DNA of 64,000 nt, from the NCBI GenBank assembly GCA_903952435.1, contig CAJBFN010000002.1:81507-145506 (forward strand). Direction: 5' to 3'. This document shows, one piece after another, positions 40,424-42,891 of this stretch. Source of the stretch: an uncultured bacterium. Its GTDB lineage: Bacteria > Patescibacteriota > Saccharimonadia > Saccharimonadales > Saccharimonadaceae. The position numbers and the translations under genes are program-made. The notes beneath the pieces are model-generated. The model was not told where the DNA came from. It saw only the letters and a list, made by a program, of their open reading frames with translations, and ran no database searches. Numbering within the stretch: position 1 is the first letter of the stretch; each line of letters opens with the position of its first letter.

Positions 40424-41221
40424 ATGTATAAGATAGGAACAAAAGGGTTTACAATAGTTGAACTATTGGTAGTGATAGTTGTTATTGGTATCCTTGCTGC
40501 TGTGACAATTGTGTCTTATAACGGCATTACCCAAAAAGCCAGTTTAGCTGTTATTCAATTTGATTTAGATAATGCATATAAAAGATTAGAGATGTATAAA
40601 GTTCAAAATAGTTCTTATCCTACAGAAATCGATGCTACTTATTGTCCTAAGTCACCAGTGCCTGATACTAATAACTGTTTAAAGTTCAGTCAAGGTATGG
40701 TGTTTACTGGCTATATTGGTAACATGTCTTCATTTGGGTTATCCGTCACAAAAGATTCAAAGGTTTATAGCATTACTCAGAAAGGTGCAGTGTTATCTAG
40801 TGGCATAAATCTGTTGCCTAATAGCCAAAATTTAAAAACAGTACCTAATCAAGTGGGTATGGGTACCGCGGAAAAGAAGACAGACGAAACTATACCATAC
40901 TGGAGAGTTACTGCGACTTCATCTGTATCGACTTATGACAATAATACGACTGCATTAGCTTTAACGCCTGGTGTGGCCTACACGATAAGTTGTGAAGTAA
41001 GAGTGCCTACGGCCGGGAGTGTTAGTTTTTGGAATAATAGGGGTATTAACACTGGTATACCGGCTAATACTTGGACAAAAATTTATTTTACTTTTACCTA
41101 TACTTCGGGATATAGGATAGGGGGCAATAATTACAGCGGAATTCAATTAGATTATAGAAATTGGAAAATTGAAACAGGCAGTATAGCTACTGATTGGACG
41201 CCAGCCCCAAGCGATCTCTAG
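40424..41221 (+). CDS. Type IV pilin-like protein with phage-tail/CBM-like C-terminal domain
   Basis: GFTIVELLVVIVVIGILAAVTIVSYNGITQ; C-term WKIETGSIATDWTPAPSDL. Confidence 0.85.
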   Translation: MYKIGTKGFTIVELLVVIVVIGILAAVTIVSYNGITQKASLAVIQFDLDNAYKRLEMYKVQNSSYPTEIDATYCPKSPVPDTNNCLKFSQGMVFTGYIGNMSSFGLSVTKDSKVYSITQKGAVLSSGINLLPNSQNLKTVPNQVGMGTAEKKTDETIPYWRVTATSSVSTYDNNTTALALTPGVAYTISCEVRVPTAGSVSFWNNRGINTGIPANTWTKIYFTFTYTSGYRIGGNNYSGIQLDYRNWKIETGSIATDWTPAPSDL

Positions 41222-42102
41222 CGCAAGGTCCACTGATTACCACCAAGGGCGCGAATTACGCCATTTATTTCCATTAATGTCATAGTTTGAGAAAATTCGC
41301 TGATTTCGGCGTCTGATTGAGTTTGCAAATCATCTCCATCACGGACTCCGGATTGTAATAATTTTATAATCTTAGTTTCTAGTGCATTGGCGCCCAGCGG
41401 TAATAGTGATTGGCCTTGCAACAGGTCTGGCGCAATAATTTCTAGTACATCTTCAGCGCAAGTTATTGGCGTTGCGCCTTGTTTGATTAATTTATTGCAG
41501 CCAGCTGATAATGGACTAGTTATGTTACCAGGCACTACAAATACTTCCCGTCCCTGATCTAGAGCGTGCGCAGCAGTTGACATCGTTCCACTGCGAATTG
41601 CTGCCTCGGTTATTATAATCGCATCGGATAATCCACTGACGATTCGATTGCGCTCGATAAACTGAAAGTCGCGTGCTGCAGTCCCGGGTTCGTAGTCACT
41701 GATAATCGCGCCACCATTTTTTATGATATTGTTTGCCAGCTCTTTATGACTGGCTGGATAAATAATATCCACACCGTTTGCCAAGATCGCTAGTGTTGTG
41801 CCGCCAGCGTCTAGCGCGGCGCGATGAGCGATACCGTCAACTCCTAATGCTAGTCCACTAACGACTATAACTCCTCGTTTTGCCAGGTCATAAGCTATCT
41901 GGTATGTCACTTCTCTGCCATAAGATGTAGGTTTGCGGGTGCCAACAATAGCTACAGTTGGTTGACGAGTTTCGGGCAATTTGCCAATAAAGTATAATCT
42001 TTTAGGCTTAGCTGCAATAGTATCTATAATCTGTAGATATTTATGGCCTAGGGGTGATATTGTATTGATTTTCATGCGTTTTGTGTCCAAATGTGTTGAC
42101 AT
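41218..42102 (-). CDS. dprA: DNA processing protein DprA
   Basis: VAIVGTRKPTSYGREVTYQIAYDLAKRGVIVVSGLALGVDGIAHRAAL, FIERNRIVSGLSDAIIITEA. Confidence 0.95.
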   Translation of the reverse strand: MSTHLDTKRMKINTISPLGHKYLQIIDTIAAKPKRLYFIGKLPETRQPTVAIVGTRKPTSYGREVTYQIAYDLAKRGVIVVSGLALGVDGIAHRAALDAGGTTLAILANGVDIIYPASHKELANNIIKNGGAIISDYEPGTAARDFQFIERNRIVSGLSDAIIITEAAIRSGTMSTAAHALDQGREVFVVPGNITSPLSAGCNKLIKQGATPITCAEDVLEIIAPDLLQGQSLLPLGANALETKIIKLLQSGVRDGDDLQTQSDAEISEFSQTMTLMEINGVIRALGGNQWTLR

Positions 42103-42124
42103 AAAGTCAAATCTATGCTAATAT
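42096..42124 (+). promoter_or_regulatory. Consensus-like sigma-70 promoter
   Basis: TTGACA(42096)-17 nt-TAATAT(42119). Confidence 0.8.
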
Positions 42125-42130
42125 CAGTCT

Positions 42131-42396
42131 CGATTGGTTACATTGCGAGATTAACCAAAAGCACCTTATACCCCCCTATCCTAACTTATAAGTTAGAGTA
42201 TATGCAATGTGTTTCTAGGGTAGACTACCCTCCATCCCTTTAGACTTTGGTTCGACCAAGCAGCATTGTATATATACTAATCCCTTTAACCGAGCCGGAT
42301 CTGCGAGATTTCGAGATTCCGCGCTTACCCCTTGGGTGGGTTAAAGGGTAAAATACGCCCACAGCGATGCCCACCCTTGCTGCGGGCGTTTTTTAT
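42131..42396 (+). ncRNA. Candidate structured non-coding RNA, unassigned family
   Basis: Promoter upstream; hairpins TTGGTTA/TAACCAA, AGGGTAG/CTACCCT, TTGGT/ACCAA, CCCTTTAACC/GGTTAAAGGG; terminator CGCCCaCAGC/GCTGcGGGCG + T6; no convincing ORF. Confidence 0.65.
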
Positions 42397-42534: not shown

Positions 42535-42891
42535 ATGTGTAAACAAATGATTAATTTCTTTATTAATTTCTTTGATAGCTTCAGTTTCGATTTAATCGAC
42601 AGCATACAGTTAGCATTGAGTATAATAGTCAGTCTAGTGTCGATTATTATCTTAGTGATGACTAAAAAGCAGACTGTTTGGAAGTTAGGCATATTAGGAT
42701 TGATAATGGTTTCTATAGCCATTTCGGTTAGAACGATATGCCAAATTTTCAGTCTAGATATGATTATCTTTTTAGACTCTTACGAAGTGTCAATACAGTA
42801 TACAGTGGTAACTTTTCTATATGTTATAGGATTGGTCATTACTGGAATTGTATTTATACCTATGGCAGTCTCAGAAATGAGAAAAAAATAG
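42535..42891 (+). CDS. Small membrane protein, uncharacterised
   Basis: 118 aa, about three hydrophobic segments; own promoter and downstream terminator. Confidence 0.65.
   Translation: MCKQMINFFINFFDSFSFDLIDSIQLALSIIVSLVSIIILVMTKKQTVWKLGILGLIMVSIAISVRTICQIFSLDMIIFLDSYEVSIQYTVVTFLYVIGLVITGIVFIPMAVSEMRKK

Follow-up and report, generated by a model that had tools for sequence, protein, structure and literature searches.

The window analysed here is a stretch of 64,000 nucleotides from a 686 kb genome assembled in 11 contigs. At positions 42096-42396 it carries a promoter, a structured non-coding RNA of about 265 nt and an intrinsic terminator. The RNA sits between topA-dprA and pth-der, a position that is fixed throughout the order Saccharimonadales, with topA and dprA upstream and pth and der downstream, all on the minus strand. 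Two further reading frames were seen in this neighbourhood: a type IV pilin-like ORF (GFTIVELLVVIVVIGILAAV) between topA and dprA (40424-41221), and a 118-aa membrane protein between the RNA and pth (42535-42891) with its own promoter-like TTGACA-TATTAT upstream. No homologue of the membrane protein was detected beside the RNA in 54 order-level loci. The features of the locus, with the evidence for each in brackets, are:

41218-42075, minus strand: dprA, the divergent neighbour, likely start at 42075 (a DprA homologue adjoins the RNA at 42 of 54 order-level loci)
42096-42124, plus strand: sigma-70-type promoter TTGACA-17-TAATAT, predicted start near 42131 (sequence)
42131-42395, plus strand: structured non-coding RNA of about 265 nt with predicted ends (fold z-score, homologues from DNA search, two covariance models)
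42134-42158, plus strand: H1, the 5' hairpin TTGGTTA..TAACCAA (all 10 pairs with compensatory changes order-wide)
42161-42185, plus strand: conserved linker with C-rich GCACCUUAUACCCCCCUAUCCUAAC, ending in CUAAC at 42181-42185 (near-invariant in the alignments)
42181-42196, plus strand: H2, an alternative helix of CUAAC (42181-42185) with GUUAG (42192-42196) (partners conserved, near-equal energies)
42192-42210, plus strand: 5' strand of H3, GUUAG plus UAUAUGCAAUG (H3 covariation in 41 diverse members)
42217-42239, plus strand: hairpin H3a, AGGG[UAGACUACCCUCCAU]CCCU (stem covaries between A-U and G-C)
42246-42260, plus strand: lineage-specific tip TTTGG-TTCGA-CCAAG (found in some close relatives only)
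42263-42281, plus strand: 3' strand of H3, ending in CUAAU at 42277-42281, with H4 directly after it (H3 covariation)
42282-42291, plus strand: 5' strand of H4, CCCUUUAACC (9 of 10 pairs with compensatory changes order-wide)
42292-42327, plus strand: H4a, a variable GC-rich hairpin inside H4 (compensatory changes in all pairs)
42334-42340, plus strand: GGGUGGG, complementary to the terminator loop (motif counts)
42339-42348, plus strand: 3' strand of H4, GGUUAAAGGG (order-level covariation)
42356-42394, plus strand: intrinsic terminator with covarying stem, invariant loop GCCCACCC (42369-42376) and U tract (stem covariation, loop conservation)

An earlier note on this DNA had proposed an unassigned structured RNA with its own promoter and terminator, and the Rfam negative, the conservation and the covariation reported below support this proposal. 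The promoter is present where the note had put it (TTGACA at 42096-42101, TAATAT at 42119-42124, spacer of 17 bases), and the -35 box together with a (GTG)CTANNAT -10 is kept in 30 aligned relatives and in most order-level loci. The terminator, CGCCCACAGC..GCTGCGGGCG-TTTTTT, is likewise found at its proposed place. Its stem is free to vary and does so with compensatory changes; the loop GCCCACCC occurs in 54 of 54 diverse order-level loci. Own promoter and own terminator, as expected of a trans-acting base-pairing sRNA, are present as conserved sequence features. A short coding ORF was rejected, as ORF positions differ between relatives. No conserved ORF was found in the RNA interval, in agreement with the note; the longest ORFs shift their position, and the sole recurrent one begins before the RNA, within the -10 region.

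The -35 box lies inside a palindrome, TTGAC-N5-GTCAA (42096-42110), which is kept in most of the own genus, is broken in other families, and could be an operator. In the promoters of loci L065-L089, which belong to other families, the -10 region itself is palindromic (TTGCTANNATNGCAA).

The 266-nt stretch folds with a minimum free energy of -87.7 kcal/mol, compared to -62.1 +/- 4.3 kcal/mol for dinucleotide shuffles (z = -6.0, with 0 of 200 shuffles as stable). At the genus level, the alignment shows changes on both sides in 29 of 72 pairs, which is matched by 0 of 500 shuffles, and sliding the partners by 1-3 columns lowers pairing from 96% to 34-46%. At the order level, compensatory changes occur in 54 of 57 core pairs (0 of 500 shuffles match) in an alignment that was fitted to the covariance model and hence favours it; 95% of its cells are paired, and only 35-49% are in the slid controls. 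An alignment of 41 diverse members that was not fitted to the model yields compensatory changes in 13 of the 18 pairs of H3 (170 cells), with a score of 0.564 versus 0.209 for shuffled alignments; 0 of 500 shuffles reach the observed value. Exchanges between GC and GU are frequent, e.g., the first H3 pair is GC in 27 members and GU in 14, and since G-U pairs are strand-specific, the RNA is read from the plus strand. These observations also bear on the reading that the conserved feature is DNA, be it part of the dprA promoter region or a site of replication or recombination. The location upstream of dprA and the palindrome over the -35 box in the own genus would suit it, but strand-specific G-U pairs, compensatory changes and terminator fit only a plus-strand RNA, and the element is kept at loci where dprA is not found adjacent. 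We consider this reading most improbable.

Among the helices proposed in the note, H1 (TTGGTTA/TAACCAA), H3 (GTATATGCAATG/CATTGTATATATAC) and H4 (CCCTTTAACC/GGTTAAAGGG) are supported by compensatory changes. Two others do not hold for the family. AGGGTAG-A-CTACCCT is found in the own sequence only and is, judging from the alignments, a local coincidence. In relatives the stem is instead AAG(G)U with A(C)CUU, and CUACCCUCC stays unpaired in the loop. The TTGGT/ACCAA hairpin is a variable tip that is absent from most relatives. In the consensus anatomy, the linker reads GCACCUUAUACCCCC..CUAAC, with ACCUU in 50 of 58 diverse members. It is followed by the long helix H3, which is closed by GUUAG/CUAAY and carries the hairpin H3a with UACCCUCC in its loop (42226-42233; 51 of 58 members). 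H4 (CCCUUUAAC/GUURAAGGG) encloses a variable hairpin or, in other families, insertions of up to about 130 nt in place of H4a. The sequence GGGTGGG is found in 33 of the 58 members and the GGTGNG type in 49. A GGGUGGG-CCCACCC pseudoknot with the terminator loop was considered and is unsupported, because the loop does not track the changes: it stays the same when GGGUGGG becomes GGGUGCG or GGGUGUG or is absent. A pairing of UACCCUCC with GGGUGGG was rejected as well, as covariation was not seen.

The GUUAG segment has two mutually exclusive partners, CUAAC upstream and CUAAY downstream, such that H2 and the outer 5 bp of H3 cannot form together. Most of the 58 diverse members retain the two partners. 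In several lineages a whole hairpin is inserted between the upstream partners CUAAC and GUUAG, and neither of them is lost. The downstream pairing covaries, to GUUGG/CCAAU in locus L063 and to GUUGC/GCAAU in L093 and L094. When either alternative is forced in folding, the median difference between H2 and H3 is -0.5 kcal/mol, and for 32 of 51 members it stays within 2 kcal/mol. These observations speak for a conformational switch without proving it; in such a switch, GUUAG may swap between an early local hairpin H2 and a long coaxial H3/H4 helix.

Conservation in relatives had been named in the note as one of the points on which the proposal could fail; sequence, fold and gene position are kept across the order. 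A DNA search of 60 relatives turned up homologues in 33 of them; within the own genus, 26 of the 27 other genomes have one. Two covariance models were built, a core model (R1) and a second one spanning linker to H4 (R2). R1 matches 180 of 294 genomes of the Saccharimonadales, and R2 matches 214 of the 294, covering 123 of 143 genera; nearly all genomes with the RNA have a single match. R1 catches divergent members missed by R2 (e.g., in genomes G151 and G163), and as the two models miss different members, the real coverage is higher than either figure. The phylum was sampled twice (290 and 384 genomes), and outside the order, among about 350 other Patescibacteria, no match was obtained. In a pattern scan of named genomes, most matches fell into records that carry the names Candidatus Saccharibacteria, Saccharimonadia or TM7; a minority came from MAGs with loose names such as 'bacterium', one of them under the label Chloroflexi. 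The best explanation for these comparisons would be a vertically inherited, standalone class of structured RNA confined to the Saccharimonadales.

That the RNA is a cis-regulatory leader of a downstream gene, i.e., a riboswitch, T-box or attenuator, could be suspected from the bistable helices followed by a terminator, and from GGGUGGG, which resembles a T-box sequence; the T-box leader (RF00230) also has a GGGUGG sequence ahead of its terminator. The gene neighbourhood does not agree with such a role. Across the 54 order-level loci no conserved same-strand downstream gene was found, and wherever pth, usually the next gene, and der were detected, they are almost always on the opposite strand. 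A leader role is therefore unlikely, and a standalone RNA is the better reading. On the other side, the RNA is retained where dprA was not found between it and topA (L073, L074, L080, L082-L084, L086); since it persists at these loci and usually faces pth downstream, there is no conserved cis target. Moreover, the Rfam scans gave no T-box or riboswitch match at the locus, a regulated downstream gene as in T-box leaders is missing, and the invariant part is the terminator loop and not an antiterminator. Overall, we rate a leader as very unlikely.

A cmscan of the window against Rfam 15 with curated gathering scores reported two tRNAs only and nothing at the RNA locus, so that no standard family is assigned. 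Sub-threshold scanning of the locus (E <= 10, 4227 families) gave no plausible match either. Most of the hits are to terminator hairpins, and several lie on the opposite strand; the lowest E-value belongs to Thr_leader, with 30 bits against a cut-off of 55, and rests mainly on the opposite-strand terminator hairpin. The note had looked for conserved blocks of RNase P, SRP, tmRNA and T-box at this place and had seen none. RNase P RNA and tmRNA were rejected as identities of the locus, as the genome encodes both elsewhere (RF00010 at G000:C2:5201-5574 with 263.5 bits, and RF00023 at G000:C2:8342-8747 with 116.2 bits).

The note had left 6S RNA as an option, and the 6S covariance model (RF00013) was applied. 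It has 0 matches in the own genome, compared to matches in 5 of 14 controls, and 6S is not among the locus matches up to E = 10. A 6S or 6S-like RNA whose similarity has gone, binding the RNA polymerase holoenzyme and dampening transcription, would fill the place left by the missing 6S match in this genome. It would also share with our RNA the size class, the single copy and the order-wide, housekeeping-like distribution. In contrast to 6S RNA, the predicted and consensus folds are hairpins in series that end in a terminator; the closing stem of 5' and 3' ends and the long rod with a large central bubble are absent, the ends being unpaired, and constraint is highest in C-rich sequences outside the helices. 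We therefore regard the 6S reading as unlikely.

A very divergent SRP RNA is hardly tenable and, as an identity for the locus, largely refuted. The slot is open, as no model match to SRP RNA (RF00169, RF01854) was obtained in 11 Saccharibacteria, the own genome and 10 relatives. However, the SRP_SPB (Ffh M) domain was not detected in the same 11 genomes and is present in 14 of 14 controls, which makes SRP RNA a poor identity. Further, a search of 21 genomes gave no domain IV signature, and the RNA has no such hairpin. From the 11 genomes, the SRP pathway of the order appears lost or unrecognisable.

The strongest constraint in the RNA falls on three near-invariant, unpaired C-rich elements, ACCUUAUACCCCCUAU in the linker, UACCCUCC in the H3a loop and GCCCACCC in the terminator loop. 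These elements and the two competing partners of GUUAG are new features of the locus. The constraint suggests a sequence-specific contact, whose partner would be either a G-rich RNA or a protein that binds single strands. In some genera of the own family (L093, L094, L095), UACCCUCC and GGGUGGG are lost and the terminator loop GCCCACCC is kept, hinting that this loop may be the core functional part. We tentatively favour a trans-acting RNA that presents its C-rich loops for base-pairing and thereby acts on translation. A discrete transcript of about 265 nt would provide helices as a scaffold holding the three C-rich unpaired elements. These elements would contact a G-rich mRNA or rRNA, or else a protein that binds single-stranded RNA, the contact would most likely control translation, and the two states of GUUAG could gate the C-rich element of the linker.

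mRNA targets were searched in the reassembled own genome, using k-mers, duplex energies and long antisense matches, and among orthologues in one relative to see whether they are conserved. Only weak signals emerged, and composition accounts for most of them. The C-rich elements do not clearly exceed shuffled elements of the same composition in their complementarity to translation start regions: in the best cases, for the terminator loop, 11 of 300 and 34 of 300 shuffles reach the observed start-site complementarity. In a further comparison, the observed count is reached by 58 of 60 shuffles for E1, 6 of 60 for E2 and 26 of 60 for E3. No extended antisense target was found in the own genome, and the 16S GGATCACCTCC end needed for an anti-Shine-Dalgarno comparison was not found in the own assembly. 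By phmmer, no Hfq or CsrA homologue was detected, so no known chaperone is at hand. An HPF/RaiA-like ribosome hibernation gene lies at 126-506 of the window. In genome G022, the start site of its orthologue, GGAGGGUA, is exactly complementary to the UACCCUCC loop; the match is imperfect in the own genome, and the one in G022 could be chance.

The target search, yielding no mRNA signal, is compatible with a different role, namely that of a structural RNA in a lineage-specific ribonucleoprotein, e.g., ribosome- or secretion-associated, with the C-rich loops as protein-binding sites. The housekeeping-like distribution with one copy at a fixed position, as well as the long and invariant single-stranded elements, would agree with this, but there is no conserved neighbour of unknown function as an obvious partner. 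We find this role doubtful, although it deserves more weight than a 6S-like RNA.

Returning to the trans-acting reading, the C-rich-loop sRNAs of Gram-positive bacteria are among the closest known systems. RsaE/RoxS-type RNAs are standalone and trans-acting, with a promoter, an intrinsic terminator and unpaired C-rich loops. Our RNA is likewise standalone, with C-rich loops able to face Shine-Dalgarno sequences. In contrast to that type, it is more than twice as long, has several covarying helices and an invariant terminator-loop motif, and occurs order-wide in single copy; no target signal was found here. With raiA, OLE and other large Rfam RNAs it shares size, lineage specificity and strong covariation, whereas it matches none of the 4227 families and its gene neighbourhood differs. 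The novelty lies in the RNA family, as Rfam has none related to it; the mechanism may well follow a known type. The literature searched contained no paper on a non-coding RNA of this kind in Saccharibacteria. The complete PGAP-annotated genome of Nanosynbacter HMT352-KC1 lists 2 ncRNAs (PMC8830319). We assume that these are RNase P RNA and tmRNA, and our RNA appears to be uncounted in current Saccharibacteria annotation.

The RNA likely matters to the cell, because it is found in nearly every genus, at one position and with much compensatory change. Its order-wide conservation suggests that the Saccharimonadales (TM7), tiny parasitic bacteria, may need it. Saccharibacteria are cultivable, transformable epiparasites with genomes of about 0.6-1.5 Mb, and in genomes so reduced each retained gene is informative. 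It is possible, if speculative, that we deal with a new housekeeping RNA that defines the order. With a single copy and two states, it would be the core of a ribonucleoprotein or a global regulator of translation, and would replace an RNA machine of other bacteria; a replacement comes to mind because SRP RNA and the Ffh M domain are apparently lacking and 6S was not found. In any case, the RNA is a direct, removable genetic target for studying self-regulation in a genome in which Hfq, CsrA and SRP are not recognisable. If the housekeeping reading is true, a long-standing gap, the regulation of expression in reduced epibionts, would become testable.
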